Of a stretch of DNA of 64,000 nucleotides, positions 2,226 through 21,539 are shown in pieces. Below the pieces are notes generated by a model. The model made no database searches, was not told the DNA's origin, and was given only the letters and a program-made list of their open reading frames with translations. The DNA lies in NCBI RefSeq assembly GCF_001425385.1, contig NZ_LMQO01000001.1, positions 744,001 through 808,000 of the forward strand, given 5' to 3'. Source of the stretch: Sphingomonas sp. Leaf407. GTDB lineage: Bacteria; Pseudomonadota; Alphaproteobacteria; Sphingomonadales; Sphingomonadaceae. Both the position numbers and the translations under genes were made by a program. Every line of letters starts with the position of its first letter. Positions within the stretch are counted from its first letter, which is position 1.

Positions 2226-2959
2226 GCGGTCGTCTCCGGCCATGCGATCGATCCGCGCATCACCCGGCGCAGTCCGGCATGGACCCCGGCCGGCCAGTGG
2301 CGTTCGTCGGTCAGTTCCTCTTCCTCCGCACTTGCCACGTCCACTGCTTCGCCGATCGGCCATTGCGCGGGCAGGGTGGCGGCCGCGTTGAAGCCCGTCG
2401 GCAAGTCCTTGAGCAGCGCTAGCCCGTCTACCAGCGCGGCGGGGATCGTCGCCGCGTCGACGATGTCCAGCACCAGAGGTCGTGACGGCACGAATGGCTT
2501 GCGGCCGATGAACAGCGGGCGTTCCGGCCGGTCTAGCGCTGCCCCCAGCGTGTCGAGGTCGGGCGCGACCTCCGCCGGGGTCAGCCGGAAAGCGATCAGG
2601 ACGCGGGCATCGGCATCCATGTCGCGATAGCGGATGTGCGGCGCGTTATAGGTCGCCGCACCGCCCGCACGTCCCTCCACCCGGCCGCGCGTCGTCCAGC
2701 CGCGATCGTTCGCGCCCAGTTGCGCGGTCTGGAACTCGCGCAGCCGTTGTCCGGCGACGACCCGCACCGACCCCATCACGATCCGCTCCTGCAAGGCGGC
2801 ATGCGCCGCCGCATCATGCCGTTCCCAGCCGAGTGCGTTGGCGAGCAGCCCGGCCAGCATCGACTTGGCGGGAAAATCGCGCACCACCCCGTACGCATCA
2901 ACCAGATCGCCGCCGAAACTCATCAGCGGCGCGTCGAGATCGAGAAGCAGATGCCTCAC
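2222..2959 (-). CDS. cas5e: Cascade subunit Cas5e (CasD)
   Basis: 245 aa with a GTG start at 2959-2957, 11 bp after the cas7e stop. This start puts the protein at the family's normal N-terminus (RHLLLDLDAPLMSFGGD, like the E. coli SYLILRLAGPMQAWG). A GGAG lies only 1 nt upstream of the GTG, closer than ideal, so translation may depend on coupling to cas7e. The next ATG at codon 13 would delete the first strand. FPAKSMLAGLLANALGW is the conserved helix of Cas5e, and GRKPFVPSRPL the later conserved block. It caps the 5' handle of the crRNA. The stop overlaps the cas6e start (ATGA). Confidence 0.94.
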   Translation of the reverse strand: MRHLLLDLDAPLMSFGGDLVDAYGVVRDFPAKSMLAGLLANALGWERHDAAAHAALQERIVMGSVRVVAGQRLREFQTAQLGANDRGWTTRGRVEGRAGGAATYNAPHIRYRDMDADARVLIAFRLTPAEVAPDLDTLGAALDRPERPLFIGRKPFVPSRPLVLDIVDAATIPAALVDGLALLKDLPTGFNAAATLPAQWPIGEAVDVASAEEEELTDERHWPAGVHAGLRRVMRGSIAWPETTA

Positions 2960-2970
2960 GCTCCGGCGCC

Positions 2971-4200: not shown

Positions 4201-4217
4201 GGGATCCCCGTCGTGAA

Positions 4218-4766
4218 TCATGGTTTGGCAATGTAAAAATTATGCGCGATTGCGATGCGGGCGGCCTCGGCACTCTTCGCATCGCCGCTCAGGAGGTGGT
4301 ACAATCTCCAAAGATTCACCTGACGTTCGCCTTTCTGCGCCAATATCCGGGCAACGCGCCGAACTTGGTCGTCGAGTGCTTCGCCACGCACACTCAGCAG
4401 CCGTAACAGCCGAACTTCGGGATAATCGAGCGTCCCTAATATCGTGCCCAGACACTTTTTTTCTTTGTGAACAAAAGGCAAGTTAGGCCCTGCCTCGCCC
4501 GTTCCAACCAGCATGGCGGCGAAGTGCGTTAGCATTCGCCAGCGATCGAAGTCGTGTTCCCGCTTGTATAATGGAACATTCGCCTTGGTAATGAAGGCGA
4601 TGATAGTGCCATCGGCTTTGAACGACTTGGTCAGTGGTATCCGTCGCAGGCTGGCTCGCTGGCCGGTCGAACTGTACTGCAATTGCCACGACAGGCATTC
4701 CATCCAGTCGTTGACGTTTACCGAACTGCTTCGCTGGGTAGCAACGGTGGTTGCGCTACTTGCCAT
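4218..4766 (-). CDS. casB: Cascade small subunit Cse2 (CasB, Cas11)
   Basis: 182 aa, a little longer than E. coli Cse2 (160 aa). The helical protein has a basic segment (GQRASLRRIPLTKS) and the family's C-terminal VNLWRLYHLLSGD...ARIAIAHNFY region. Two copies normally stabilise the R-loop along the Cascade belly. The start overlaps the casA stop by 11 bp; the stop overlaps an upstream cas7e ATG. Three 60-base lines counted by hand in this gene carry 28-34 G+C, against 45 of 60 in a drmD sample, so it has a different compositional history from the DISARM cassette. Confidence 0.92.
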   Translation of the reverse strand: MASSATTVATQRSSSVNVNDWMECLSWQLQYSSTGQRASLRRIPLTKSFKADGTIIAFITKANVPLYKREHDFDRWRMLTHFAAMLVGTGEAGPNLPFVHKEKKCLGTILGTLDYPEVRLLRLLSVRGEALDDQVRRVARILAQKGERQVNLWRLYHLLSGDAKSAEAARIAIAHNFYIAKP

Positions 4767-6258
4767 GTTCCGCTTTCTTTATCCACGGGTCCATTTTATC
4801 GTCGAACTTTATTCGAGCTTTGGGGCGGGCTCGCAGCAGGCGCATTTCGCCAAGTGGTCCGGCATCGGCCGCGCGGTCCAGTTCGGCACCTGCCATCAGG
4901 CGCAACCGCTTGCGCCATTCCTGGAGATGGTTGCCCGGGTCGTTTACCACTTCGGCCCAGAAATCCTTGTCAAAGAACACCTGGTCGACGCAGGCGTCGA
5001 ACCGTTCGACGTAGCGGTCGGTTTTCTTCCGCCCCGAACTGTCGTCAAGGCGCGGTTCGTCTGGCCCGCCCTGAACCAACACCAGCAAAGCGTCGCGCAG
5101 AAATTTAGCAGCCATTCCGGCCTGAACCGCGCGTTCTTCCGCTACCTTGCCGACGCGGTCGAGCGGGTCCTCGCTGAAACCGTCCCATTCGCCCATCCGG
5201 CTGGTGCGTACCGGGCGGCGGTGCAGTCCTTCGGTCTTGCCCTGTCCGCGCACCAGTGCGGCGGCGAGGATGGTGAGGCCCGCGGGATCGTCGCCGTCGT
5301 AGGGATTGGCGAGCAACGGACGGGTGATCTTCTTGTCGTCGAGCAGATGCGTGATCTGACGATAGCCGAAGCCGGCGCTGCTAGGGGTATGACTGGATGA
5401 CCGGTCAACCTTGATCGGCGCCCAGGGATCGTCGGTGACGCCCTTCGAATCGCCGGGGGCGATCCGCGCGACCTTCGATCCAGCGGCCAGTCCCTCGACC
5501 CCATTTAACGGCGTGTGGGTCAGGCGGATGCGACGGCAAATCTCGACGTACAGTTCGTCGAGGTCGGGTAAGCGTAGCGACAGCGTCCCGTCCCACGGCA
5601 CGGTCCAGAGCAGCGCGGTGCCCTGTCGACGTTGGGGACGGGCGCGGCCATGCTGCACTAGCCGCACCACATCGCGCCAGAACGCCGCCGCCGCGCCACC
5701 GTTGCCCGGCCGGATGCCCAGTGTCATCCGCGTGGCAAACCCGCCATTCATCCGCGAGATGCCGTAGTTGCCCGCGCCCAGAAACCCCTCGGTCGTCTGG
5801 AGCGTGACCAAGGCGAAGAGCCAGTCCTCCTCGCTCGCGACGGCGATGCGTTCCTGCTTTACGTCGTGGTTGCGCGAGGTGACGAGCATGTCGAGCGCGT
5901 CGGGGGTGCGTAGCGGGTTCTTGTAGTCGGCGCGATTGGCCGGGATCACGACCGGCGGCTGGAGCAGCGCGGGTCTGGTCCAGTCCTCGACGACCAGCGA
6001 CCATGGCTCGCCGTCGGGATACGCGGGGGTCAGCGCGAGCAGCAGCTCCCGCCAAGCGGCTTCGTCGTGCGGCGGTTCGTCGGTTCCGGCGTTCAGCAAG
6101 GCGAGTGCTGCGACCTGTACGGTGAAACTATGCCATGGCTCGCGCTGATGCGGGCGCAGCGCGGGGAAACTCCATGCCTCGCCACGCGACAATGCCGCGA
6201 ACGCGGCGAACAGCGAGCCACGATGCACCGCTCCGTCGCCGTCACGCCAACCGATCAT
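4756..6258 (-). CDS. casA: Cascade large subunit Cas8e (Cse1, CasA)
   Basis: 500 aa, the normal Cse1 length. It recognises the PAM, opens the DNA and docks Cas3. The conserved Cse1 N-terminal region is present (AALSRGEAWSFPALRPHQREPWHSF), as is TPAYPDGEPWSLVVEDWTRPALLQPP, then LDMLVTSRNHDVKQERI and TLQTTEGFLGAGNYGISRMNGGF. The C-terminal four-helix bundle ends in a basic tail. The ATG is preceded by a GGGAGGGGA ribosome site. Its upstream neighbour is drmB, 123 bp away, not cas3 as in E. coli; this is the only gap of that size in the minus-strand run. Confidence 0.95.
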   Translation of the reverse strand: MIGWRDGDGAVHRGSLFAAFAALSRGEAWSFPALRPHQREPWHSFTVQVAALALLNAGTDEPPHDEAAWRELLLALTPAYPDGEPWSLVVEDWTRPALLQPPVVIPANRADYKNPLRTPDALDMLVTSRNHDVKQERIAVASEEDWLFALVTLQTTEGFLGAGNYGISRMNGGFATRMTLGIRPGNGGAAAAFWRDVVRLVQHGRARPQRRQGTALLWTVPWDGTLSLRLPDLDELYVEICRRIRLTHTPLNGVEGLAAGSKVARIAPGDSKGVTDDPWAPIKVDRSSSHTPSSAGFGYRQITHLLDDKKITRPLLANPYDGDDPAGLTILAAALVRGQGKTEGLHRRPVRTSRMGEWDGFSEDPLDRVGKVAEERAVQAGMAAKFLRDALLVLVQGGPDEPRLDDSSGRKKTDRYVERFDACVDQVFFDKDFWAEVVNDPGNHLQEWRKRLRLMAGAELDRAADAGPLGEMRLLRARPKARIKFDDKMDPWIKKAEHGK

Positions 6259-6314
6259 GCGTTCCCCTCCCGTTCACGCCAAGCTGCCGGGAAGCACCGC
6301 GCGACGCAAGCCGA

Positions 6315-6341
6315 AATTTACCAACAGGAACAGCATGAAAA
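6315..6341 (-). promoter_or_regulatory. Possible casA promoter
   Basis: The 123-bp drmB-casA gap (6259-6381) is the largest in the minus-strand run and is less GC-rich than its flanks. On the minus strand TTTTCA (6341-6336) and TAAATT (6320-6315) are spaced 15 nt apart, a poor match to the housekeeping consensus. If real, it would let Cascade be expressed apart from DISARM. A transcription-start map is needed to decide. Confidence 0.25.
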
Positions 6342-6381
6342 CTGGCGCTAAACCGCCGCCCGGCCATGATTGCGACGCTCC

Positions 6382-8253
6382 TCATCCGGTAGCCTGCCCG
6401 AACAGCGCAGCGCCGTGATCGAGCACGGTCGCCGTGGCAAGCGTACGATCGAGATAGAGGTTACGCGCCTCGCAGCTCGTCTCGGCGACCAGCAGACAAC
6501 TGTGGCAGGCGGCACCGCTCAGCGCGCGTTCGTCCATGTGGGAATCGGGATCATGTTCGGTGCAGATCGGATCGCCCGAACACAGCGCCAGCCGGTCGAG
6601 CGCGCGTTCGATGATCGCGCCCAGCCGGGGGACGACGGCGGTGAGGCCACCTAACGTACCGCCCGCGCCGGTGCTGGCGGTATAGAGTAGCAGCCCGTAG
6701 CGCTCGCCATCGGGGTCGAGCAGCGCGTAGAGCCGTTCCTTGAGCGAGGTCGCGGGATAGCCGCACTCCAGCGCGATCTCGTTGAGTAGCGCATGCGACA
6801 GGCTGTGGATCGCGTAATAGGCCAGCGTCGGGAAGCGCAGCCGGTCGCCGCCGATCTGCCCGTCGCGCCAGCGGTCCCAGCCGCGATAGAGCAGGTCGTG
6901 GCGTCGCGCGACTTCGGGGCGGCTCAGCCAGTCGCGCATCACCGCCGGGTCGAAACGCAGGAAAATGCCTTCGCCAAGTTGCTCGACCGCCGGTAGCCAT
7001 TCGAGATGGTCGGCCAGCGCCGCGCCCTCGACCGCGAGATAGAGTTCCTCCAGATCGCCGTCGATCGCGGTCGGGGCCGCTTCGAACCGGGTGAAGCCGT
7101 AGAGGCAGGACACTTCGCGCAACCGGTGGACCGACACCACCGAGGCGATCGGGGCGAGGCGCGCGCGGTTGCCGTCCCATGCCTCGCGCGGCAGCGTCCG
7201 GGCGTGCAGCCGTGCTTCGGCATGGTCGGAACCGATCTCGGCCAGTCCGCTGGCCAGCAGGTCGAATTCGGCGACCTTGGGGGCCTTGTCCAGATTCTGC
7301 TGGCCGGTCGCGCGAAGCTGGCCGATGCGCCCGACGATCTCCGCGTCGCTCCAGCCGGCGAGCGCGGCGCCGACGGCGGGGTTGGCGCGGCGGGCGATGG
7401 CCATCTCCGCCGTCCGCTCGACCCAGCCGATCGCGTCCATATGCTGTTCGATCAGCCGGGTCAGTTCGTCCTCGGCGGCGGGCAGCGAGATGACGGTCAG
7501 CACCTGCGGGAAATAGGAGTTGGTCGCGGTGCGGGTGAGAAAGCGCAGATCCTCGCTGCATCCGCCCGGTTCGTCGGTCCGCAACCATGGGCGGCGTCCC
7601 CGGCACGGGCCGAACCGGCCTTTCGTCTGCGCATCGCGCAGCGACAGCGCCGCGCCGCAATCGCAGACGATCCGCGTCGCCGCCGGGCTGCCCGACGTGC
7701 CCTGTTCCTCCAGCCACAGCGGCTGCGCGCACCGATCGGGCGATCCGATATGGACCGCGAAGGTCCAGTCGATGTCCTGCAAATGCCCCTTGCGGCAGCC
7801 GGCGACGAAGCGGATCGGCGTCACCGCCTTGCGCCGGCCGTCGTCGTCGACGAAATCGGCACGGCCGCGTGGATTGAGGTCACGCCAGCGCACCAGCCGG
7901 CGGCGGCGGACGTCGCCGACCACCTCGGCATCGCGCGCGACGAACCATGCCGGAAAGATACGTGCCTCGATCCCCGGCGGATCGGCCCGACCGTTCGCTC
8001 CTTCGTCATGCGCCGGCGGCGTGCGCAGCGACAGGCGAACGCCGTCGTCGAGCCGCCCGCCGGCGCGCAGCAGCGTTTCGAGCACCGCGACCGCGCGCGG
8101 TTCGTGGATCGGCCGCCAACTGCCGCGTTCGCGCATGTGCCACAGGTCGAGCCCGCCGATGATGACCGACCGGGTCGGCAGGTCGACCATAGCGCCGGGA
8201 CCGAAACCGGTAATGAGCTGCGACTGGCGCAGCGTCGGGCGGTGTCCGCTCAT
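6382..8253 (-). CDS. drmB: DISARM protein DrmB (DUF1998)
   Basis: 623 aa. DrmB forms a complex with DrmA in class 1 DISARM. The N-terminal half has paired cysteines suggesting metal binding (GCRKGHLQ; VCDCGAALS; FGPCRGRRPW; GGCSEDLRFLTRTATNSYFPQ). The C-terminal DUF1998 shows AIHSLSHALLNEIALECGYP, LLLYTASTGAGGTLGGL and a cysteine cluster (LCSGDPICTEH...AACHSCLLVAETSCEARN). The ATG at 8253 overlaps the drmA stop (ATGA); a longer open reading frame upstream is the wrong frame of drmA. It ends 123 bp before casA on the same strand, directly joining the DISARM and Cascade blocks. Confidence 0.92.
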   Translation of the reverse strand: MSGHRPTLRQSQLITGFGPGAMVDLPTRSVIIGGLDLWHMRERGSWRPIHEPRAVAVLETLLRAGGRLDDGVRLSLRTPPAHDEGANGRADPPGIEARIFPAWFVARDAEVVGDVRRRRLVRWRDLNPRGRADFVDDDGRRKAVTPIRFVAGCRKGHLQDIDWTFAVHIGSPDRCAQPLWLEEQGTSGSPAATRIVCDCGAALSLRDAQTKGRFGPCRGRRPWLRTDEPGGCSEDLRFLTRTATNSYFPQVLTVISLPAAEDELTRLIEQHMDAIGWVERTAEMAIARRANPAVGAALAGWSDAEIVGRIGQLRATGQQNLDKAPKVAEFDLLASGLAEIGSDHAEARLHARTLPREAWDGNRARLAPIASVVSVHRLREVSCLYGFTRFEAAPTAIDGDLEELYLAVEGAALADHLEWLPAVEQLGEGIFLRFDPAVMRDWLSRPEVARRHDLLYRGWDRWRDGQIGGDRLRFPTLAYYAIHSLSHALLNEIALECGYPATSLKERLYALLDPDGERYGLLLYTASTGAGGTLGGLTAVVPRLGAIIERALDRLALCSGDPICTEHDPDSHMDERALSGAACHSCLLVAETSCEARNLYLDRTLATATVLDHGAALFGQATG

Positions 8254-11200
8254 GTCATGTCTCCGGCGCCGCTGACCGTCTCGCCGGTCGGTCCACGGGG
8301 TTTGACGAGGACGCCCGGCTCGACGTCGCGCATGCTCCACCCCGCCTGGAACCGGCGGTGCGCGGGGTCGAGGTTGGGCAATGCCGGGTCGAGCGGGGGA
8401 TGGAGCAGCCGTTGCGGCCGGGTGTCGTAGGTGAAGCCCGCGCCGGTCGCGATCTGGGCATCGGCGATGGCGGTCCAGTCGTCGAGCAGGCCCTCTATCG
8501 TCGCCGCCAGCCGTTCCTTGCCCCCGGCAATATCGGCGGGCGCGCGATCGACCAGATGGCGGAGGACGGCGGCCCGGACGGCGGGCGCGTTCGCCAGCGC
8601 GTCGACCGCATCGGACGGGGTCAGCGCCGGATCGAGATGGCGGGCGATCGCCACGACCACGGCGGCCAGCGACCGGTCGAGCGCGCGGGCGGACCATGGC
8701 GTCACGCTCGTCGCTTCCACCGCGCGGTAGAAGGTGTCGTGGAAATGACCGAATTGTTCGAAGTGCATCCGGTCGCGCGGCTTGTGGACGTTCAGCACCG
8801 CCACGACCAGCCCCGGCCGGGCGGGATTGCGCCCGACGCGGCTGGTCGCCTGGATATATTCCGCCGCCGTCTTGGGCTGCCCCTGCACCAGCATCAGTCC
8901 CAGCCGGTCGATGTCGAGGCCGACCGAGATCATGTTGGTCGCCAGCGCGACGTCGACCGGCGCTTCGCCGGCCGGATCGGGCAGGAACAACGTTTCGAGC
9001 CGGCGCTTGGCCGCCGCCACCTGATCGGTCGACACGCGCGAGGTCAGCTCGACCGGTTCGCCCAGCAGGCGGTTGCCGAACGGGCGGTCGACCGGCTCGA
9101 TCCGGCGGCGGCGGTCGCCGTAATCGAGCAGGCGGGTCGCCACCTCGTCCTCGACGATCCGCCGCGCGCCGCCCAGTTCGCGCAGCGCGTTGAAATAACA
9201 CAGCGCGGTGCGATAGGCATCGGCGTCGCCGCCCTCGTCGGCAAGGCCCTGCGCCGCGCCGAGCAGCGTGACGAGCGCTTGTAGGAACACCAGCTTCGGT
9301 CCGCGCCCCGCCGCGGCGATGCCGACATACCAGCGTGCCGGATCGGCATCGCTTTCGGGCCGGGTTTGCGCGAAAAAGCTGTCGCGGCGATCGACGCCGG
9401 GGGCGGGAAAGATGCGCGTGTCGTGCCGGTCGAACAGTGCGCGGATCTGGTCGCTCGCGCGGCGGACCGTCGCGGTCGAGGCGACGATCTTCGGCCGCAC
9501 CCGCCGTCCGCCGACGTCGCGAGTTGCCAGCGCGTCGATCGCGGCTTCGTACAGCCCGGCGACGGTGCCGAGCGGACCGGAGATCAGATGCAGCTCGTCC
9601 TGGATCACCAGATCGGGTGGCGCGAGCGGATGATCGCCGAGCGTGCGGCCATGCCCCGGTTCGGCCGCGCCATAGAAGCCGGTATCGTCGTGCCGGTCGA
9701 CATGGCCGAAGAACGCCCCCGCCGGCCCGTTCCATGGCAGCGCGGCGAATTTGTCGACCGTCGCGATCAGGAAGGCGGGCAGGCGGCGATAGATCGCCTC
9801 GTCGACCGTCACCACCGGCAGTGCGCGGTCGCCGGTGAACGGGCAGGCGAGGTTCACGCAGCGCAGTTCGAGGTTGGTCGGCGCGTCGGCATTGGGTACG
9901 CAGCGAAAGCTCTGCGGGGTGAACGCCGTGTCGCACCACGGGCAGGTCTTGATCGGCGCGGGCGCGCGCGTGTCGCGACCGCTGGTATAGGCGCGGACGC
10001 GGCGGACGGCGGTGCCGTCGCTGCGGTCGCCGCGTCGCCCCAGCCGGTTGGGGCTGGCGTCCGATCCCACCCACAGCCCGATCTCGATCGGCCAGTCGCC
10101 AAGCAGGGGACGACCCCGATCGTCGCGGTAAGCATCGCCGGTGCGCAACAGCTCCAGCGCGCAGACGACGCCGGCCGCGCGTCCCAACTGGTCGAGCGTC
10201 AGCAGCCGCAGCGTATAGCGCATGATGACCGCGACCCCGGCCCCGAGGACGCCGTCCGCACCCAGCCGGCGCAGCGCGATGGTGAAGGCGGCGAGGCCGA
10301 GATAGGCTTCGGTCTTGCCGCCGCCGGTCGGGAAGAACAACAGGTCGGCGGTTTCGCGATCGTCATGGCCGCGATCGACCAGCCCGGCGAGGTTCAGCAG
10401 CAGGAAGGCGAGCTGGAACGGTCGCCACGCCGGTGCGCTGTCCTGCGGCCGGCGCGCGCGGGCGGCATCGGCGATGGCGCGGTTCGCGATCTCGAACGCG
10501 GTGCGCGCGCGTTCGTCTTGGGCAAGTAGCGCGATGCCCGCCGCGATCCGGTCGCAGGCCACCCGTTGCGCCGCCAGCAGCGTGGCGGCGGTGCGGGTGC
10601 GTTGCGGTGCGCCGACGATCGCCGGATCGCTCGCCGCCATCGCCTCCTGCGCGAGCGACCATGCGCGATAGGCGGGGATGAGCGGGGCGAGCGCGTCGGC
10701 AAGTGCCGTGCCATCGGTTCGCGCGAGGTCGGCCAGCCGGTCCATGGCGAAGGTCACGTCGGCGACCGGGGCCGCAACGGTACGCTCCACCGCCGCGCGC
10801 GGCAGATGGGTGGTATGGATGCACCGGACTTGCCCGTCGCCCCCGACGACATGGCCGGTCGAACAGCCGAGGCCGGCGGAATAGGCGGCGCTGTCGCGGT
10901 AATGCAGGTCCGCCAACTGGTCGTCCCAGTCGTCGCGGGCGATGCGCGACAGGTCGTGCTGCGCCACGAAGCCCCCGGCGCAGGTCACGTCGAGTTGCAC
11001 CTGATAGGCATAGGCGAGGTCGCGGTAGTGCGACGCCGGTTCCAGCCGCTTGTTGATGAGAAAGACCGTCACGACCTGCACCGCGCGCGTGGCACCGGTG
11101 GCGAGGTTGAGGCGGAACGGCCGCGTCCGCACCGCCAGTTCGAGCGCGCCACCGGGCCGCGCGGTCGCCGCCGAGCCGGGCAGGGGGTGATGCACGATCC

Positions 11201-11711
11201 CCGCCGCCGCGTCGGGCAACGCGATGGTGATCGTCGCGTCGCGGGGCACGCGCCGCCAACTGATCGGCTGGCCCCTGGGCTCGCCGCCGCTTTCCAGCAT
11301 TTCGAACGGCACCGGTGGTTCGGGGACATAGTCGCCCCAGCGCACGGTCACGTCGATCGTCGTTGCCGCCGCATCGACCATCGTCGACAGGCCGATGCTG
11401 CTGGGCAGGAACCGTCGCCGGGTGGCCGGCGGATCGGGCTCGTCATGGTCGCCGGCGGCACCGCCGGCACCGAACCCCTCGGTGTCGGGGATGAAGCTGT
11501 CGACCTCGTCCTCCTGCGCTTCGCCGGCGAGGTCGCCCAGCACGGTCAGTTCGCCCGACGGCGCGATGAAGCCGGCGAGATACCAGCGCGACGGGCTCTC
11601 GCCCGGCGGCAGCCGTTCGCTCGCGAGATCGGCATCGGCGGGGTCGGACGGGCCGATCAGATTGCGGCGCAGGCGATCGACGATCGCCGTGCGAACTCCG
11701 GCGGCGGTCAT
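8250..11711 (-). CDS. drmA: DISARM helicase DrmA
   Basis: 1153 aa. DrmA is the SF2-type helicase core that loads on phage DNA together with DrmB. Walker A is FPTGGGKTEAYLGL with Lys466. The Walker B-like box is IQDELHLISGPLG at 705-708. The C-terminal helicase domain has ALATNMISVGLDIDRLGLM and AAEYIQATSRVGR. The motif-II spelling DELH and the MISVGLDI block are characteristic of DrmA. A cysteine pair (KTCPWCDTAF) sits between the motifs. Both ends overlap neighbours by ATGA (drmMI before, drmB after), so translation is coupled. No frameshift was seen. Confidence 0.93.
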   Translation of the reverse strand: MTAAGVRTAIVDRLRRNLIGPSDPADADLASERLPPGESPSRWYLAGFIAPSGELTVLGDLAGEAQEDEVDSFIPDTEGFGAGGAAGDHDEPDPPATRRRFLPSSIGLSTMVDAAATTIDVTVRWGDYVPEPPVPFEMLESGGEPRGQPISWRRVPRDATITIALPDAAAGIVHHPLPGSAATARPGGALELAVRTRPFRLNLATGATRAVQVVTVFLINKRLEPASHYRDLAYAYQVQLDVTCAGGFVAQHDLSRIARDDWDDQLADLHYRDSAAYSAGLGCSTGHVVGGDGQVRCIHTTHLPRAAVERTVAAPVADVTFAMDRLADLARTDGTALADALAPLIPAYRAWSLAQEAMAASDPAIVGAPQRTRTAATLLAAQRVACDRIAAGIALLAQDERARTAFEIANRAIADAARARRPQDSAPAWRPFQLAFLLLNLAGLVDRGHDDRETADLLFFPTGGGKTEAYLGLAAFTIALRRLGADGVLGAGVAVIMRYTLRLLTLDQLGRAAGVVCALELLRTGDAYRDDRGRPLLGDWPIEIGLWVGSDASPNRLGRRGDRSDGTAVRRVRAYTSGRDTRAPAPIKTCPWCDTAFTPQSFRCVPNADAPTNLELRCVNLACPFTGDRALPVVTVDEAIYRRLPAFLIATVDKFAALPWNGPAGAFFGHVDRHDDTGFYGAAEPGHGRTLGDHPLAPPDLVIQDELHLISGPLGTVAGLYEAAIDALATRDVGGRRVRPKIVASTATVRRASDQIRALFDRHDTRIFPAPGVDRRDSFFAQTRPESDADPARWYVGIAAAGRGPKLVFLQALVTLLGAAQGLADEGGDADAYRTALCYFNALRELGGARRIVEDEVATRLLDYGDRRRRIEPVDRPFGNRLLGEPVELTSRVSTDQVAAAKRRLETLFLPDPAGEAPVDVALATNMISVGLDIDRLGLMLVQGQPKTAAEYIQATSRVGRNPARPGLVVAVLNVHKPRDRMHFEQFGHFHDTFYRAVEATSVTPWSARALDRSLAAVVVAIARHLDPALTPSDAVDALANAPAVRAAVLRHLVDRAPADIAGGKERLAATIEGLLDDWTAIADAQIATGAGFTYDTRPQRLLHPPLDPALPNLDPAHRRFQAGWSMRDVEPGVLVKPRGPTGETVSGAGDMT

Positions 11712-14700
11712 GGCAGCGCCCCTTGCATCGCGCGTTCTCCGTTGAGTTTCAGCAATCGCGCCAGCACCTCGTCGCGGAACGCGGCCGGCCAGAACAGCCG
11801 GTTCTGATAGCGATGATCGTCCTCGCTCCCGGCGGTCAGGAACACCGGCGCGGCGGCATCGGCCAAGTCGTCCCAGCCATAGGCGACGAGGACCGCGCGA
11901 TCTATCGCATGGTGCAGTTCGCGCAGGCGAACGATGTCGGCGGCGGTATCGCCCGGCCGGTGGAAACGGTTGTAGGTCGGCGTCATGCCCTGATCGCAGG
12001 CGATCATCAGCGCGGCGCGATGGTCGTGATAGGCTTGGCCGACGGTTTCCAACGACACGTTGCTGGAGTAGTCGGTCGGGAAGGGGAAGGTTTCGAAACA
12101 GTCGGATGGTGTGTAGCGAACGTCGTCTTTCATTGAGGACGCAAAGAACCGCGTCCAAACCTCATGGACCCGGCATTGCAGCACCGCGAACGCCGACAGC
12201 GTCGGAAGTGCGAAGACAGCGGCGGTGTGGGAGAACACGACATTCCCGGGACGTCGCGCGAAACAGACATGCGGTGTCGCACCACAGTTGATGACCAGTA
12301 CCTGATCGAGCGGTGCGATCGTGCGGTACAATTCGCCGCGACCCCGCAGGAATCGCCACCATATCCGCTGGCCATTGGGGTCGCCCTGCGAAAGCCGGTC
12401 GGGCTTTACCCGTTGTTCGACGATAGCGAGCAGGTCCGCCCAATCCGCCGCGACCGGTCCGGCGTACTGCGGCGACACGATGCCATGGCGCAGGCGATCG
12501 GCGCGCTCCGCGTCCGAAAGGCCATGCCAGACAAGGTCGCTTTCGCGTCTGAGCGGCCAGTCGGCGAAATCGATGGTATGGCGATGATGGGCATGGGTCG
12601 GAGAATTGTTGATCTCCTCGCCGCCGAGATAGGGTTTGATTACCGCTCCGTTTCGCGGATCGACGGACAACAATCGTTGCATCTCGGCGAGTGGCGATGC
12701 CTTACCCTTGGCCGCGTTCACATCGTCGAAGGTGAAACCCATGCCGAGCAGGAACGAACCAATGAACGACTGACCTTCATTCTTCACCAACCGGGCCGGC
12801 GATCCGTCGAGATCCCCTTCCATCAAATAGGCCGAAATCCGCTGCACCGGGCGATCGTCGAGGATCACCGGTCCGCTCGCCGCACCCTTCACCACGAAGA
12901 CCTGCGCCACCACGACGGCGGCGTCGCCTTCCCATTGATACCGGCTGACCGCGCGGTAGATCGTGCCGCCGTCCTGCACGATCCGGTGCAGCCCGGTTTC
13001 GCGGGTATCGCCCTGGCGGATGGTGTTGGTCGCGATCAGGCCGAACGCGCCGCCCCGCCGCAGCAGCGCGAACGCGCGGCGGAAGAAATGCGCCGCCAGA
13101 TCGGCATTGCCGTGCGCGCCGGGATGCAGCGTCTTGAGCCAGTCGGGATAGGCGCGGGCGTGACCGGCGGCGATGGTGTTCTTGCCGGCGAACGGCGGGT
13201 TGCCGATGATCGCGTCGAACCCCGGATTGGGCCGGGTGAACACATCCTCGAATTCCAGTTCCCAATGGAAGCTGGCGATCCCGATCGGCGATGCCTGCAA
13301 CCGATCGCGCAACGCCTCCAGCGCGGCCCAGCTTCGCTCGCTCGGTGCCAATACCAGTTGCTGCACCTCCGCCAGCCGCACGTCGCGATCGCGCGCGCCG
13401 GTGCCCTCGAAGAACGACTGGAGGATCGCGTCGGCAACCAGATGCGCGCGCTTCAGCGCGGTTCCGGCGGCGCGGTGACGCGCTTCCTGCACGTCATAGG
13501 CGGCGACCTCCGCCTCGGTGCGGACCAGCCGGCGCAGTTCGGCCGCCGCATCGATGCCGTCCTGCACGATCGCCTCGACAAAGCTGTGCTGGCCCGACAC
13601 CTTGCCCCAGGTGACGGCGACGATCTTGGGATTGGGCAGCCCGACCAGACTGTCGCCGGCACGCAGCACATTGTCGAGGAACGTGAATTCATGGTTGCTC
13701 GCCAGCGTCTCCAGCCACAGCGACAGCTTGGCGAGATCGATCGCCAGCGGATTGCGATCGACGCCGCGCAGGCAATGCTGCGCGACCAGCCGCTTGGCAT
13801 GGAGCAGTTCGTCCTCGTCGGCGGGGATCGTCGGCCGCTGCACCGGCCAGCGCCCCCACGCATCGACCAGCCGCTGGCCGAGCTGCCGGCACGCCTCGAC
13901 CAGAAACGCGCCCGACCCGGCGGCGGGATCGCAGACTTTCAGATCGAGGACCTCTGACGGGCGCGCATCGGGGCCGATCCGGTCGAACGCGGGCCGCAGC
14001 GCATGGGCGACGATCGGCCCGGTCAGCGAACGCGGGGTATAATGGCTGCCGGTCCGGCGGCGTTCGTCGGTGGGTTGCAGGATCGGGGTGCCGGCCGCGA
14101 CCGGGCTGCCGCGCGGCGACGCGCGCGGATCGACGACGGGGGCGAGCGTCGCTACCAGCGCGGCGACGTCGACCGCCTGTCGCAGCCCCTTCGCGACAGC
14201 GGCGGGAAAGGTACCGCGCCCGGTCGCCTCCTTCAGCCACTTCTCGCGCTCGCCGCCACGAACCGCGGCGAGCGCAGCGAGATCGACCCACACCGGCACG
14301 CGGTTGGTCTTGCCCGCGCGGATCGCCAGCATCGCGCCGCCCGCCGCCTCGACGGTGAAGCCCATCACCGTTTCGTAGACCGACCCGATCTGTTCGACGC
14401 TGAGCGACCGATAGGCGACCCGTTCGCCGTCCAGCAGCAGCAGCCCGTCGAGCACGCGCAGGATACAGCCGTCGCCGACCGGCAGCACCCGCGCCAGATC
14501 GTCGATGCCATCTTGCCCGAGCAGGAACGGAAACGCCGCCTCGCGGAACAGCTTGCCGCCGCGCGCCTGCATGAAGCCCGAGGGATGCCCGCGCTCGACC
14601 AGCCGGAACAGCGCCAGCAACCGCCCCCATGCCCCGCGCCGCTCGTCCATGCCATCGGGGTGGCGCGCGGCATCGTCGCGCAGGTGCAGGTGAAGCGCGC

Positions 14701-15640
14701 CCAGTGAATAGCCGCGTTCGTACAGCATCGCCGCCGCCGCGCCGCCTGCCGAGGGCATCAGCGCGCGATCCTCGGCATAGAGGATGAAGATCAGCCGCAA
14801 CAGGACGGTCAGCAGCCCTTCGTACAAATGCTGCGGGTCGTGCGCGGCCAGCCGGCGGACGGGTTCGGGCGACGCCGCGTCGATACCGCGCAACAGTTCG
14901 TGCAGGCTGGCGAGGACCTGCCCCGCCAGCCGGATCGACACATCGGCCTGCGCGGCACGGCTTTCGGCGAGCAGGGCTGGCAGCCGGTGCGACGGCGGCC
15001 CGGTGAACAGCGCATGGGCATCGAGCAACAATTTCAGCCCGCCGAGCATCGCCCGGCCCGACACCTCGCCCAGCGGGGCCAGCGGCCACGTCATATGCCC
15101 CGACACGTCGCCGCGCGGCGCGACGACGAGGCGCAGGACCGCCTCGTGCGCCGGTCCCTCCTTCCGCCCGGTCGGCCGCGCGCCGATCAACACGCCTGCC
15201 GGAACGCCGGTTTCACGCAGCAGGCGTTCGAAGCGCTGGTGCGCGGTAGCCGCCCAACCGTCCAGCATGCCCCGCCGGTCGAGGTCGACGTCATCGCCCT
15301 CGATCCGTACGAGCAACTGCACCGACCCGTCGGCGGCGAACACCGCCCAGTCCGGTTCAAGCAGCGTCGCGCCATCATCGAGCGAGCATCGCAACCCATC
15401 GGGCAGCGCCGGTCCGCCGGGTGCCCCCGCGACCCGCTCGGCGGGCCAGCCCAGCGCGTCCCGAAAGAAGGGCCAGCGATCCGTGCCCGCCAGCGCGCGT
15501 GCCACGGCCGCGCCGTCATCCGCGCCCTGCGGCGTCGGCCATGCGCCGATCCGCGCGAGCGCGGCGGACGCGACGACCAGCCCGGTCGGCTGGAGATAGC
15601 CGATCCAGTCGTGCGCATCGGTGGGCGATGGCCGGCTCAT
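11708..15640 (-). CDS. drmMI: DISARM class 1 N6-adenine DNA methylase DrmMI
   Basis: 1310 aa. Motif I is DPAAGSGAFLVEACRQLGQR (571-579 for the core), and motif IV is IIGNPPFAGKNTI with NPPF at 814-817, which marks an amino-methyltransferase acting on adenine. A long N-terminal region precedes the methylase, and a likely target-recognition region follows, as in type IIG and PglX-like enzymes. In class 1 DISARM this enzyme is thought to mark self DNA. A type IIG single-protein restriction enzyme is the main alternative, but the fixed drmD-drmMI-drmA-drmB order argues against it. ATGA overlaps join it to drmD and drmA. Confidence 0.9.
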   Translation of the reverse strand: MSRPSPTDAHDWIGYLQPTGLVVASAALARIGAWPTPQGADDGAAVARALAGTDRWPFFRDALGWPAERVAGAPGGPALPDGLRCSLDDGATLLEPDWAVFAADGSVQLLVRIEGDDVDLDRRGMLDGWAATAHQRFERLLRETGVPAGVLIGARPTGRKEGPAHEAVLRLVVAPRGDVSGHMTWPLAPLGEVSGRAMLGGLKLLLDAHALFTGPPSHRLPALLAESRAAQADVSIRLAGQVLASLHELLRGIDAASPEPVRRLAAHDPQHLYEGLLTVLLRLIFILYAEDRALMPSAGGAAAAMLYERGYSLGALHLHLRDDAARHPDGMDERRGAWGRLLALFRLVERGHPSGFMQARGGKLFREAAFPFLLGQDGIDDLARVLPVGDGCILRVLDGLLLLDGERVAYRSLSVEQIGSVYETVMGFTVEAAGGAMLAIRAGKTNRVPVWVDLAALAAVRGGEREKWLKEATGRGTFPAAVAKGLRQAVDVAALVATLAPVVDPRASPRGSPVAAGTPILQPTDERRRTGSHYTPRSLTGPIVAHALRPAFDRIGPDARPSEVLDLKVCDPAAGSGAFLVEACRQLGQRLVDAWGRWPVQRPTIPADEDELLHAKRLVAQHCLRGVDRNPLAIDLAKLSLWLETLASNHEFTFLDNVLRAGDSLVGLPNPKIVAVTWGKVSGQHSFVEAIVQDGIDAAAELRRLVRTEAEVAAYDVQEARHRAAGTALKRAHLVADAILQSFFEGTGARDRDVRLAEVQQLVLAPSERSWAALEALRDRLQASPIGIASFHWELEFEDVFTRPNPGFDAIIGNPPFAGKNTIAAGHARAYPDWLKTLHPGAHGNADLAAHFFRRAFALLRRGGAFGLIATNTIRQGDTRETGLHRIVQDGGTIYRAVSRYQWEGDAAVVVAQVFVVKGAASGPVILDDRPVQRISAYLMEGDLDGSPARLVKNEGQSFIGSFLLGMGFTFDDVNAAKGKASPLAEMQRLLSVDPRNGAVIKPYLGGEEINNSPTHAHHRHTIDFADWPLRRESDLVWHGLSDAERADRLRHGIVSPQYAGPVAADWADLLAIVEQRVKPDRLSQGDPNGQRIWWRFLRGRGELYRTIAPLDQVLVINCGATPHVCFARRPGNVVFSHTAAVFALPTLSAFAVLQCRVHEVWTRFFASSMKDDVRYTPSDCFETFPFPTDYSSNVSLETVGQAYHDHRAALMIACDQGMTPTYNRFHRPGDTAADIVRLRELHHAIDRAVLVAYGWDDLADAAAPVFLTAGSEDDHRYQNRLFWPAAFRDEVLARLLKLNGERAMQGALP

Positions 15641-18600
15641 TCGCCGCTCCAGCCGGGCGGATGGAGATAGACCAGCCCGATCGGCTCCAGCCGGCTCGCG
15701 CGCACCCTGGCCGCCGCGCGCAGCCGTTCCGGCTCGCGGACCAGTTCGTCGTCGAGCCGCGTCGCCGCGCGCTCCCACGACCGGCGGTCGGCGGCGCGCT
15801 GGCGCGCCTCGGCGGGATCGAGCAGCAGCGCGAACTGGCGATCGTCGCTGCCCCGTTCGCGGCGGATGCGATCGATCCGCTGTTGCAGCAGCGCGTGGAG
15901 CGTATCGGCCTCACCGGCGGCGCGACGGTCGAGTTCGGCGGCAATGCGCGCCTGCCGCACCGCTGCCCGTTCGGCAAGGACCGGGCGAAGATCGGCGACG
16001 TCGACGGCGGCCTGCGCGGTGATCGCCGCGGCGACGTCGGGCGCGGCCATCCGCGCCTCGCCCAGCGCCGCGATCAGCCCGTCGAGCACGCGCCCCTCCG
16101 CCTCGCCGCCCTCGGCCAGTGCCCGGAGCGACCCGTCGCGCGGGGCGGGCCGCCAGTCGGCGGCGACGCTCATCACCTCCTCGTGCAGCCGGGCCGCGCG
16201 TTCGCCGAACAACGCCAGCCGTCCGATCAGCACGACACGCGGGCGCGGCACGCTGCCGGTTTCGATGACGCAGGCCCGTTCCAATCCCTGCTGGAACCCC
16301 GCCGACAGGAACTGGCCGAGCAGCCGGCGGACGAGGCGATGTTCCAGATGTACCTGCACCACATCGCCGGCGTCGCGGCCGTCGGGCAGGATCGCGGGTG
16401 CGAAGCTGACGCGCCGGACCTGCGCATCGGCGCTGGCACGCCATTCCCCCGGCCGCTCGCCGGGGCGGGGGCCACGGGCGCGCAACTCGTCGAACAGCGG
16501 TTGCCAGCCGGAATCGCTCGCGAACGCCGGATCGAGCCGGAATACCGGAGTTTCTCCGATCCGTTCACCATCGCTCCAGCCGCCACCCGACCGTTCGAGC
16601 GCCAGCGCCACGACCGATCGCAGGTCGTCCGGCTCGACGCCGACCCGGCGGCGCGCGCGTTCCAGCGCGACGGCAAGCTCGGCCTGCTCGCGTTTCAGCC
16701 GGGCGCGGCGGGCGACGTCGCCATCGTCGAGATCGCGGACCGCCGCGCGGACCCGTTCGTCGGCTTCCTCGTCGCGGATGCGGGCGGCGAGATCGATGGC
16801 CGCCGTGCGGGCGATCCCCCCGCCCATACGATCGGCGATCCGCGCGCCCAGCACCTGACCCGCCGAGCCCAGTTGACGGCGGATCAGCTCGGTCTTGCGG
16901 ACCAGCGCGTCGAGCACGACGTCCTCTGGCCGGTCGGCATAGACGAAATAGCGGCAGGTGACGGTCGGGCTGGGTTGCAGCTTGCGGTCGATCCGTCCGT
17001 TGCGCTGTTCCAGCCGGGCGGGGTTCCATGGCAGGTCGACATGGATCAGGTCGTGGCATTGCGCCTGAAGGTTGATGCCCTCGCGCGCGGCATCGGTGCA
17101 GATCAGGATACGCAGCGGATCGTCGGGATCGTTGAATGCCCGCTTGATCGCCTCGCGCCGTTCGGCCGAGGTGATGCCGGTGAAGCTGGCGATGCGCGAC
17201 GCCTCATGGCCGTCGGCCGGATCGAGCAGCACCCCCAACTGCCGTTCGAGCCAGCGGCGGGTATCCTCATATTCGGTGAACAGGATCAGCCGCCGGTCGC
17301 GCCACCGCCCATTCCCGTCGAGCAGATGCGCGGCGGCCCAGTCGAGCAGCCAGCGCACCCGCGCATCGCCCTGGCCACGCACGCTGTCGGCCACGTCGAG
17401 CATCGCGGCGGCACAGGCCCGCTCGGCCAGCAGATGGGCATGCGACGCGCCACCGATCCCGGCCAGCGTCGCCGCCTCGGTCTGGACGGCGGCGGCGCTG
17501 TCGAGCCGGTCGAGCGAGGCCGCTTCCTGATCGGCGCGTTCGGGGGGCTCGACCTCGACATCGTCGGGCATCGCAACCGGTGCCGCCGGCCCGGCGATCG
17601 CCCGGTCGAGCGTCGCGAGATGCACCCGCAGCGTCCGTGCGAAGGCCGGGATCGACGACAGCAACCGCTGTTGCAGGCCGACGAACGCAAGGCGCGCCCG
17701 CGCCGCCGCTGGCCCCTTGAGCGCGCCGATCCGCCGCTCGCGCACCTCACGATAGGCGGCGAGCATCGCGGCAAGGCGAATCTCGGGCGCGTCGGCGGGC
17801 AGGCCGGTCAGGACGACCGGTTCGACAACCCGTTCGGGAAATGCCTCGCCCAATGCGCGCAGGTCGCTTTTCAGCCGGCGGACCATGACCGGTTCGAGAT
17901 CGGCGGGCCGCACCGGCACCCCGCGCGTGAACCGCTGCGGATCGAGCAGTTCGAGCAAGGTCGCGAAGCTGTTGGCGTGACCGTTGTGCGGCGTGGCCGA
18001 CAGGAACAGGCGATGTTCGAACCGGTCCGACAGGTCGCGCAGCGCGCGGGTGAACTGGCTTTCGATCCCATAGCGCCCGCCGCCCGACGGCGCGGCATGA
18101 TGCGCTTCGTCGAGGATCAGCAGCGAACGGGCGCGAAAATCCTCCAGCACGTCGCGTAAGCCCGCGACATAGGCTTCGTCGGTCAGCAAGCGGTGCGACA
18201 GGATGAAGCGCGATCCCGTCGCCCATGGGTTCGCACCATATCCCCGCCGGCGGCGCAGCGTTTCGAGATGCTGGCGATCGACGATCTCGAACGCGAGGCC
18301 GAACTTCGTCTGCAACTCATCGCGCCACTGGCCGGTCATCGCCGCCGGGGCGACCACGACCGCATAGTCGACCCGCCGCCGCAACAGCAGTTCGCGCAGG
18401 ATCAGCCCGGCCTCCACCGTCTTGCCCAGCCCGACGTCATCGGCGATCAGCAGGTTGACGCGCGGCAGGCGCAGCGCCTTGCGCAGCGGCAGCAACTGAT
18501 AGGGGTCGAGCCGGATGCCCGCGCGAAACGGCGCCTGGAACAGATCGCGTTCGGCGGCGGTCGCGGTGCGCCAGCGGACGGTGCGCAGATAGGCGGCGAA

Positions 18601-18858
18601 CAGCCGGGCGTCGCCGCCGCTGTTGGCCAGCGTGTCCCACGCCTCCTCGTCGCGCAGCCGGGGATCGATCTCGGCGCTCCACAGGACGCGGGCTTCCTCG
18701 CCGCCGGCATCGTCGTCGACGCAGGCGAGATGATGGCCGTCATACGGGCCATCCGGTTCGCCTTCGACCAGCCACAGCCGGCCGCGCAGCGACACGAACT
18801 GTCCCACCGACGGGCCTGATCCGCCTGTTGCGCCCCGTCGTTCCCGTAACCCGTCCAT
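15637..18858 (-). CDS. drmD: DISARM class 1 SNF2-family helicase DrmD
   Basis: 1073 aa from the ATG at 18858. N-terminal helicase lobe: [16 protein letters not shown] (Lys146), ILDEAHHAA with DEAH at 250-253, and [13 protein letters not shown]. C-terminal lobe: [58 protein letters not shown]. This is a SNF2/RapA-like ATPase, which defines class 1 DISARM together with drmMI. A GGGAGGGG lies 11 nt upstream of the start, rather far, so a start at a nearby GTG is possible. It is the first gene of the minus-strand defence run and diverges from cas3. It ends in an ATGA overlap with drmMI. Confidence 0.9.
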   Translation of the reverse strand: [1073 protein letters not shown]

Positions 18859-19046
18859 CCGGTCCGTGTCCCCTCCCGAACGGAGAGGGTGAGGGGGTGG
18901 GGGGAGGGGGACAACGCGGACTGGGTCCGTTACCGACCGTTCGGCCCGCGACCGCTGGCGAGAATACATCCGTTATGGATATGAATGGGGCGGCGATGCC
19001 GACCGATGATGAATATGCCGGCGGTACGGGAATGGGGAGAAAGCAA
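18859..19046. promoter_or_regulatory. drmD/cas3 divergent intergenic region with G-run cluster
   Basis: This 188-bp spacer must hold the promoters of both the DISARM run and cas3. At 18887-18910 the plus strand has four consecutive G-runs of 3, 5, 6 and 5 separated by 3, 1 and 1 nt, fitting the G-quadruplex pattern. Just left of it, 18871-18889 forms an imperfect palindrome (CCCTCCC/GGAGAGGG arms). No confident -35/-10 pair was found on either strand. The GC-rich block also resembles repeats common between genes in GC-rich proteobacteria. Confidence 0.55.
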
Positions 19047-21539
19047 GTGGACGTCATGCGACCATGGGCGAAGCTCGAGCGGGACGGGGACGACCGCATC
19101 GTCGCGGCGCTGCCGCTGCTCGATCACTGCCTCGACGTGGCGGCGGCGTTCCTCGCGCTGCTCCCGGCATGGCGGCCCGCGCTGGAAGCGGCGGCGGGCA
19201 GGTCGTTGACCGAACAGGATGTCATCCGCCTCGCGGTGCTGGTCGCGCTCCACGACATCGGCAAGGTGAACTGGGGGTTTCAGGCACGCTCGACCCCCGG
19301 TCGAGAGCCGATTGGCCATACCGCGCAGGTGGCGGGACTGCTGCTGCACACTGAATTAGGCCAAGGTGACGCGGCGACGATGGTCAAGGCGCTGCTCCGA
19401 TCGTGGAACGCGGCCGATCTGTTCGTGGCGGCGCTGGCGCATCACGGCCGGCCGATCGAGGCGTTCTGTAAGGGTGCGAGTGTCGACTCTCGGGTCGGCT
19501 TGGTCGATTATTGGCATTCCGACGCCGGCTATGATCCGATCGCGGCGCTGCTGGACGTCCTTGCCGCCATCCGCGACCGCTACCCGCAGGCATGGGCGGA
19601 AGGCCCGCCGCTTCCCGCCGCGCCGCGATTCACCGCGCTGTTCGCCGGGCTGGTGACGCTGGCCGACTGGGTCGGATCGGACACGCGCCGGTTTCCGGTC
19701 GGCGCACCGCATGGGACCGAACGCGAGGCGCTGCGTCAGGCATCGGCACAGGTGGCGGTCACGACGCGCGGCATGACCCTCCTGCCGACGCCCGAAGCCG
19801 ACTTCGCCCAGGCGTTCGGCAATGACCCGTACGACTTCCAGTACGCCGCAGCCGCCGACGATCTCGGCCCGATCGCCCTGATCGAAGCCGAAACCGGATC
19901 GGGCAAGACCGAGGCGGCGATGTGGCGCTGGCTCGAACTCCGCCGGCAAGGCCTTGTCGACGGACTCTATTTCGCGCTGCCGACCCGATCGGCGGCGGTG
20001 CAATTGCACGGCCGGGTCGACCGGATGTTGCAGCAAGTATGGGGCGATGGCGCGCCCGAAGCGGTGCTGGCGGTGCCCGGCTATCTGCGCTCGGGCGACG
20101 CGGAGGGGCAGCCGCTGCCCGACTTCGCGGTCCGCTGGGATAGGGGCGAACCCGATATGGCGGTGGATGCGCGCTGGGCGGCGGAGCGATCGGACCGGTA
20201 TCTTGCGGCGCGGGTCGCGGTCGGCACGATCGATCAGGCATTGTTCGGCGCGATTCCGATCCGCCACGCACTCTTCCGCGCCAGCGCGCTGTCGCGCAGC
20301 CTGCTGGTGGTGGACGAGGTTCATGCGTCGGACGCCTATATGACCGGTCTGCTCAAGCAACTGCTCGCCAATCATCGCGCGGCGGGCGGTCATGCGCTGC
20401 TCCTGTCGGCCACGCTCGGCGGAACGGCGCGCGCCGATCTGTTGAACCCGGCCGGCCCCAAGCCGACGCTGGCCGAGGCCGAGGCGGCCCCCTATCCCGC
20501 GCTGACCGCGTCCGACGGCATTGCGCGCGCGGTGCGGACCGGTGGGCGAACGAAGCAGGTCGGCATCACGACGGTCGGCTGGATCGACGATGTGGACGCC
20601 ATCGCCGCCGCCGCGATCGACGCGGCGCGTGCCGGGGCATCGGTGCTGGTCATCCGCAACACCGTCGACGATGCGGTAGATGTCGCGGAGGCAGTCGCGG
20701 CGCGTGCCGGCGATCTCGCCTTCGCGGTAGGCGACGTCGCCACGGTCCACCACGGCCGGTTCGCGCCCGATGATCGTCGCAAGCTCGATCGCGCGGTGGA
20801 GGCGGCTTTCGGCAAGGGACGCTCGGCAAAGGGGCGGATACTGGTCGGCACGCAGACACTCGAACAGTCGCTCGACATCGACGCCGATTATCTCATCACC
20901 GATCTTGCGCCGATGGACGTGCTGCTCCAGCGGATCGGCCGTCTCCATCGGCACGATCGCAACGATCGCGGCGCCTTTGGTGCGGCGCGTGTCCTGGTCC
21001 TGCGGCCGGCGGATCGCGATCTGACGTCGATGCTGCGTGGTGGCAATCCGGTCTATCGCAATGTCGTCGTGCTGGAGACGACGCTCGCCCTGATCGAAGC
21101 GAATCCGCACATCGCGATACCGCACGACAACCGTCGGCTGGTCGAGCATGCGCTCCACCCGGACGCCATCAAGGCAACCGCGACGGCGCGAGCAAACACC
21201 TGGCAGAACCATGCCAATGAGGAAGCCGGTCGCAAACATACGGAGGCCAAAACAGCCGAGGCGCTGGCGATCGATCTGACGCGGGACTATCGCCTGCTGA
21301 GCTTCGCCCCCGATGTGGAGGTCGCGGTCGCCACCCGCCTCGGTGGGCGCGACCTGATCGTCGATCTTCCCGAAGGTCTTGCCGGACCGTTCGGCGGGTC
21401 AGTCACACGGCTCAAGATTCCCGACTGGATGGCGAAGGGGATGAAGCCCGACAGTCCGGTCACGATCGTCGACACCGCCAGCTTGACCCTTGGCGAGCAC
21501 CGCTACCGCTACGACCAATGGGGATTGCGCGCCGGCTAG
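19047..21539 (+). CDS. cas3: CRISPR-associated nuclease-helicase Cas3 (HD-DExH)
   Basis: 830 aa from the GTG at 19047, which has GGGGAGA 6 nt upstream; an ATG three codons later (19056) and one at 18975 are alternatives. It is recruited by Cascade to nick and degrade target DNA. The HD nuclease domain has LLDHCLDVA and HDIGK (His69-Asp70), then AHHGRP. The helicase has ETGSGKTEAAMWRW (Lys287), VVDEVHASDAYM (Asp423), LLSATLGG, GTQTLEQSLDID and QRIGRLHRH. All motifs are intact. It stands alone on the plus strand, separated from its Cascade partners by the 12.5-kb DISARM cassette. The stop lies inside the left arm of an inverted repeat. Confidence 0.95.
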   Translation: MDVMRPWAKLERDGDDRIVAALPLLDHCLDVAAAFLALLPAWRPALEAAAGRSLTEQDVIRLAVLVALHDIGKVNWGFQARSTPGREPIGHTAQVAGLLLHTELGQGDAATMVKALLRSWNAADLFVAALAHHGRPIEAFCKGASVDSRVGLVDYWHSDAGYDPIAALLDVLAAIRDRYPQAWAEGPPLPAAPRFTALFAGLVTLADWVGSDTRRFPVGAPHGTEREALRQASAQVAVTTRGMTLLPTPEADFAQAFGNDPYDFQYAAAADDLGPIALIEAETGSGKTEAAMWRWLELRRQGLVDGLYFALPTRSAAVQLHGRVDRMLQQVWGDGAPEAVLAVPGYLRSGDAEGQPLPDFAVRWDRGEPDMAVDARWAAERSDRYLAARVAVGTIDQALFGAIPIRHALFRASALSRSLLVVDEVHASDAYMTGLLKQLLANHRAAGGHALLLSATLGGTARADLLNPAGPKPTLAEAEAAPYPALTASDGIARAVRTGGRTKQVGITTVGWIDDVDAIAAAAIDAARAGASVLVIRNTVDDAVDVAEAVAARAGDLAFAVGDVATVHHGRFAPDDRRKLDRAVEAAFGKGRSAKGRILVGTQTLEQSLDIDADYLITDLAPMDVLLQRIGRLHRHDRNDRGAFGAARVLVLRPADRDLTSMLRGGNPVYRNVVVLETTLALIEANPHIAIPHDNRRLVEHALHPDAIKATATARANTWQNHANEEAGRKHTEAKTAEALAIDLTRDYRLLSFAPDVEVAVATRLGGRDLIVDLPEGLAGPFGGSVTRLKIPDWMAKGMKPDSPVTIVDTASLTLGEHRYRYDQWGLRAG

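Follow-up and report, generated by a model that had tools for sequence, protein, structure and literature searches.

In the genome of Sphingomonas sp. Leaf407, a class 1 DISARM operon, drmD-drmMI-drmA-drmB, sits between a divergent cas3 and a type I-E Cascade operon and lacks drmC, the gene of the phospholipase D (PLD) nuclease component. The lack of drmC is long-standing in this lineage, and absences of this sort have been reported before; the nest, in which DISARM has been kept in the same CRISPR locus in most related carriers, is the less expected and more notable feature. Taken as a whole, we consider it probable that a class 1 DISARM lineage without drmC nested once in this locus, that host nucleases would do the cutting, that the CRISPR system would act independently and that both are co-inherited as an island. 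By the window we mean the whole stretch of 64,000 nucleotides that was analysed.

From left to right, the window holds the array end followed by cas1, cas6e, cas5e, cas7e, cas11e and cas8e on the minus strand, then drmB, drmA, drmMI and drmD, also on the minus strand, and finally cas3 on the plus strand (Table 1). Cas8e, Cas11e, Cas7e, Cas5e, Cas6e, Cas1 and Cas3 together with the array make up the identified type I-E set; the array comprises 79 repeats in total, a count that tolerates up to 6 mismatches and was made in L106, which shares 300 bases with the window. The start of drmD at 18858 was placed by homology to an annotated homologue on NZ_CP155757.1, and the true start of cas3 probably lies near 18.97-19.06 kb. 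A gene for a subtilase autotransporter (Peptidase_S8, PATR, Autotransporter; 21911-25357) adjoins cas3 in the window. Starts overlap as ATGA, by 4 bases, at all three internal drm junctions, and the translations of DrmA, DrmD and DrmMI contain readable strings that we take to be Walker, DEAH-like and NPPF motifs. The cassette carries the marks of class 1 DISARM in that the drmA helicase and drmB (DUF1998/MZB) are separate neighbouring genes and the drmMI adenine methyltransferase and the drmD SNF2-like helicase lie within the operon. DrmE, which marks class 2, was not among the PADLOC matches listed for 14 proteins of the cassette and its neighbours, the best 25 for three of them.

Table 1 Features of the nested DISARM operon and the surrounding type I-E CRISPR locus in the window
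Feature	Coordinates	Strand	Remarks
CRISPR array end, type I-E	1..182	none	29-nt repeats, 61-nt spacing; array extends leftward
cas1	549..1448	-	Pfam PF01867
cas6e (ORF extent)	1449..2363	-	Pfam PF08798
cas5e (ORF extent; true start probably internal)	2222..3073	-	Pfam PF09704
cas7e	2971..4221	-	PADLOC Cas7e E 2e-92; Pfam PF09344
cas11e	4218..4766	-	PADLOC Cas11e E 5e-19
cas8e (casA)	4756..6258	-	PADLOC Cas8e E 5.7e-135
drmB-cas8e gap, 123 bp	6259..6381	none	position where drmC comes after drmB in drmC-bearing relatives
drmB, 623 aa, MZB domain	6382..8253	-	PADLOC DrmB E 1.2e-76; Pfam PF09369
drmA helicase, 1153 aa; PTGGGKT and DELH strings	8250..11711	-	PADLOC DrmA E 1.9e-251
drmMI methyltransferase, 1310 aa, MmeI/type IIG-like; NPPF present	11708..15640	-	PADLOC DrmMI E 0; Pfam Eco57I, MmeI_Mtase
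drmD SNF2-like helicase	15637..~18858 (ORF to 18969)	-	PADLOC DrmD E 2.4e-273
cas3 ORF, HD nuclease-helicase, divergent from drmD	18828..21539	+	PADLOC Cas3e E 2.4e-161; Pfam Cas3_HD

The earlier note on this DNA had claimed a DISARM cassette without drmC at 6382-18858, and both the claim and the extent, which agrees with the refined gene ends, were borne out. Neither PLDc_2 nor PLDc identified a PLD gene in the window, our own DrmC HMM had no match in positions 1-30000, and the drmB-cas8e gap is too short to hold drmC. The single H-x-K-x4-D string listed near drmB falls in the cas7e frame. According to the PADLOC 2022 paper (PMC9252829), detection of type I requires all five genes, drmC being one of them. 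Because the drmC PLD nuclease component is absent, the cassette is incomplete by this five-gene rule; its gene content, gene order and position in the tree place it in the class 1 DISARM lineage.

The age of the drmC-less state was read from a tree of DrmB. Loci were drawn from 396 order-level, 295 genus-level, 385 class-level and 398 phylum-level genomes (overlapping sets) and from plasmids, where 59 records matched drmB and 16 of these were used; a contig scan contributed 16 loci, in 13 of which the genes from cas8e to cas1 follow drmB. We made a DrmC HMM from nine DrmC proteins; applied to ORFs of at least 80 codons, it finds drmC directly after drmB in 12 loci, namely the nine seeds and L059, L101 and L102. 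In the 41-row tree, 27 rows without drmC form one clade (100/99), inside which the 16 rows that are nested, or once were, make up a subclade (100/100), with L031 of genome G550 counted among the nested rows though its Cascade is now on another contig. The remaining 11 rows of the larger clade stand alone (L033, L034, L039, L049, L050, L051, L053, L054, L056, L058 and L099). None of the 27 rows yielded a drmC in the stretches searched, which for most rows reached up to ~22 kb, with 2 to 11 kb after drmB. The comparison proposed in the earlier note, between stand-alone and CRISPR-nested loci, therefore gives drmC in 0 of 16 nested rows and in 12 of 25 stand-alone rows, the other 13 being without it. 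The 12 rows with drmC fall into two other groups of the tree, and the 27-row clade does not include two drmC-less stand-alone rows, L052 and L057. Presence and absence of drmC amount to 2 changes on the 41-row tree, the 53-row tree agrees, and some deep forks within the 27-row clade have bootstrap values of only 81-84. Because drmC is absent also in the stand-alone sisters, its absence is older than the nesting. We conclude that drmC was missing before the CRISPR nesting or was never present in the lineage; the tree is unrooted, so that loss and gain look alike on it.

The 41-row tree leaves out 15 'other_noC' rows, the duplicates L040 and L071, the remnant L041, L100 and L103-L105. The 15 'other_noC' rows are DISARM-like loci that form a separate branch in the 53-row tree; a NERD-type helicase follows drmB in L043 and L046 and a Vsr nuclease in L045, and L044 begins like L043. 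Among the 11 stand-alone rows of the clade, drmMI was matched in all, and the stretches covering L039 and L099 showed no drmD. The best drmMI match in L033 (G039) spans only residues 10-881, and this stand-alone sister may thus be broken; in L049 a transposase lies inside the methylase gene. L050 encodes, between drmMI and drmA, a protein whose annotation is phospholipase D; it contains a single H-x-K-x4-D string, matches neither Pfam nor our own DrmC HMM, and may be another PLD nuclease. Contig C32 of G372 (L039, L040) has two equal-scoring drmB copies 76 kb apart, reflecting a duplication or an assembly artefact.

We also considered that the missing nuclease is encoded elsewhere. A six-frame profile search of the 3.78 Mb genome (9 contigs, completeness 100%), as the earlier note had advised, gave five PLDc_2 matches in four genes, none in the window; PLDc had four matches in two of the same four genes, again none in the window. 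All four host genes of the PLD superfamily lie more than 100 kb from the cassette or on different contigs, and none adjoins drm genes. Judged by length, motifs and context, L001 is presumably cardiolipin-synthase-like, L003 a general PLD protein, L005 a polyphosphate kinase and L004 the neighbour of a type I restriction gene, and on these grounds the four were rejected as partners of the cassette, L001 on context only. Their matches to DrmC profiles are modest, the best being that of L001 (E 1.8e-14; two PLDc_2 matches), and we take them to reflect the shared superfamily. The possibility of a drmC flanking the window, or sited elsewhere but found together with the cassette, was likewise checked among relatives, with a negative outcome: of 20 other genomes with the window's drmB lineage (17 with the cassette nested now or formerly, plus G039, G172 and G372), none has a PLDc_2 match next to the cassette. 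The nearest such match noted, a 727-residue frame in G414 ~33 kb from drmB, is by its length probably of the polyphosphate-kinase kind. Bravo et al. 2022 (PMC9142583) propose, for other hosts, that a host PLD protein supplies DrmC in trans. In favour of this proposal, each of the 20 genomes has 3 to 7 PLDc_2 matches, and L001 with its DrmC-profile match could act in this way. PLD proteins are generally common, though, with PLDc_2 matches in 12 of 14 control genomes, and the host's only unusual PLD gene, L004, had a protein match in 0 of the 20 related genomes, a search that included no positive control among those 20. Supply of DrmC in trans is therefore unlikely in our judgement.

As another candidate, a hidden PD-(D/E)xK nuclease in the N-terminal region of DrmMI was rejected, because the expected site reads LLVRIEAP or similar. 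The alignment showed no ExK in the nuclease-like region in 15 drmC-less and 5 drmC-bearing rows, L039, L055, L073, L074 and L079 having gaps at the motif region. An AlphaFold2 model of DrmMI residues 1-560, made from 13 rows, was of middling confidence (mean pLDDT 71.6), and a Foldseek search with this model matched no PDB entry at an E-value of 0.001 or below; its weak matches include lambda exonuclease and DrdV, a type II enzyme.

Turning to the nest itself, the window's cas8e is present in 18 of 295 Sphingomonas genomes and its drmB lineage, at an identity of at least 68%, in 20 of 295, one of them (G225) by a 238-residue remnant. All 18 genomes with cas8e also carry the drmB lineage: 16 side by side, one as the G225 remnant and one, G550, on separate contigs. 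If the two were independent, ~1.2 shared genomes (18 x 20 / 295) would be expected, with rows dependent through shared descent. All that remains of DISARM in G225 is the end of drmB, located between cas8e and cas3; at the deletion scar (L041, 7267-8000) this end abuts the start of cas3, drmA, drmMI and drmD are gone, and cas3 seems to be without its usual upstream region. In the split nest of G550 (L070-L072), read by eye, the contig with cas3 and DISARM continues into aroB/aroK-like genes, and the other contig has Cascade and the array beside an apparent tRNA and a recombinase-like frame. A Sphingomonas parapaucimobilis plasmid of 138 kb, classed as non-mobilizable, carries the nest as well, a hint that the arrangement has moved from one replicon to another. 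Six plasmid records had a cas8e match, and the three opened besides the nest hold type I-E loci without DISARM. At the family level, 2 of 159 genomes matched cas8e, the window's own and G1426; the latter has a type I-E locus with a ~50% identical cas8e, and the 5.8 kb before it (L110, 1-5782) contain almost no long ORF and gave no match to cas3 or the drm genes.

Between nests the genes differ in their similarity. The identity of other nests to the window is 90-95% for cas1, 60-67% for cas8e and mostly 58-63% for cas3. Cas11e is only 52% identical between L036 and L048, while cas8e is 95% and cas5e 100% identical, and between L027 and L032 it is 44% against 92% for cas8e; Cas11e thus seems to have been swapped between close nests. 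A contig titled Bacillus sp. 2B10 (L035) carries a Sphingomonas-type nest and is probably from a mislabelled or contaminated assembly.

This conservation could mean that the two systems form a coupled two-step defence in which DrmAB opens unmethylated phage DNA and so provides Cas3 and Cas1-Cas2 with single-stranded or broken DNA for cutting or spacer capture; such coupling would be why the window's cas8e was not found in any of the 295 Sphingomonas genomes lacking a drmC-less DISARM or its remnant. We consider it improbable. Transcription of DISARM and Cascade as one operon was rejected as the main reading on two observations, a box before cas8e and the G225 deletion. In 12 of 15 nests a TTGAC box stands 46-51 bases upstream of the cas8e start, compared with a mean of 0.27 and a maximum of 4 in 2000 base shuffles, the 15 loci being related and their kinship ignored. 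The exact box is absent in the window and in L029 and stands at -61 in L038; the drmB-cas8e gap of L029 contains a CRISPR-repeat-like stretch, read by eye. From sequence, the box suggests that Cascade has its own promoter, and together with G225, which kept cas8e while losing most of DISARM, it points to separate transcription. We read the nest as two co-inherited defences, not one fused machine.

A closer tie, in which Cas3 replaces DrmC, is very unlikely. Here DrmAB would unwind phage DNA, the HD domain of Cas3 would cut the single strand, and the nesting would have made drmC superfluous. In its favour, cas3 adjoins drmD divergently, the lower coordinates of drmB and cas3 are 12.6-13.3 kb apart, in opposite orientation, in the 14 genomes with both on one contig, and cas3 of G550 remains beside drmD though Cascade is on another contig, which can be cited for coupling. 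Against it, Cas3 requires loading by Cascade, and the clade's 11 stand-alone rows yielded no drmC either. Specifically, the window's Cas3 has no match genome-wide at E 1e-20 in the two genomes with the closest stand-alone systems, G039 and G172, which have no drmC beside drmB either; Cas3 is thus unnecessary to explain the drmC gap. Of the two options in the earlier note, the Cas3 HD nuclease as a stand-in is accordingly not supported, while a dispensable drmC fits, given that the gene was found in none of the 27 rows, 11 stand-alone ones included, and that Bravo et al. 2022 (PMC9142583) already describe DrmC as dispensable and frequently absent.

That the cassette is in decay with drmC as its first loss is most improbable. 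Broken relatives do occur (a drmB stop and split cas3 in G425, cas8e stops in G498 and G501, a cas3 stop in G440, the G225 deletion and the partial drmMI in L033), but the four drm genes of the window are all full length with their overlaps intact, and a drmC-less state common to 27 rows, with DrmB identities to the window down to 39%, is too old for ongoing decay. The cassette could be inactive.

Our preferred account of one nesting, host nucleases and independent systems can be spelled out as follows, with the biochemical steps taken by analogy from published DISARM work and the gene content, the 27-row absence of drmC, the tree order, the nesting and the box observed directly. A class 1 DISARM of a drmC-less lineage would have come once to lie between cas3 and cas8e of a Sphingomonas type I-E locus. 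DrmMI would methylate host DNA as self; DrmA and DrmB, with DrmD, would load onto phage DNA that is unmethylated and has a single-stranded 5' end, and the loaded proteins would translocate and unwind it so that replication is blocked. Any cutting would fall to host nucleases, without a dedicated DrmC. Because either system can be found alone and Cascade apparently has a promoter of its own, the neighbouring CRISPR system most likely works independently, and DISARM and CRISPR would be inherited together as a defence island.

Compared with class 1 DISARM as described by Bravo et al. 2022 and, reportedly, by Ofir et al. 2018, the window has the same order of drmD, drmMI, drmA and drmB and differs in having no drmC after drmB. 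In class 1 DISARM of Nostoc and Trichormus plasmids (L055, L073, L074), drmA is 46-47% and drmB 39-40% identical to the window's and the two genes are adjacent as well, but drmC directly follows drmB; L073 and L074 also have extra genes between drmMI and drmA, and L055 a transposase inside the methylase gene. Stand-alone class 1 systems without drmC in G039 (L033), G172 (L034), Paracoccus pMARC5, Sulfitobacter and Sinorhizobium share the order drmMI, drmA, drmB, with no drmC found and DrmB 39-68% identical; unlike the window, they had no match to its cas proteins in the stretches examined, and the drmMI match of L033 is partial. Type I-E loci on Bosea, Azospirillum and Pontibrevibacter plasmids have the order cas3, cas8e, cas11e position, cas7e, cas5e, cas6e, cas1, cas2, as in the window for the genes identified there; in them, however, cas3 is co-directional with cas8e and near it, and DISARM does not intervene. 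Among the literature matches listed, none described DISARM nested in a type I-E locus by title or abstract start, and the arrangement is new as far as we searched.

The Shield paper (PMC10270631) gives drmABC as common to all subtypes, and a 2025 YprA preprint (PMC12458937) describes DrmC as typical of DISARM, mostly with a Cas11-like four-helix bundle. A detection rule that demands all five genes would miss the drmC-less lineage. Where the frequent lack of drmC had been a matter of scattered cases, our data define a lineage of DISARM without its nuclease, which is a natural setting for asking how DISARM stops phage without cutting, and the conserved nest with type I-E CRISPR allows testing whether innate and adaptive defence benefit from adjacency.
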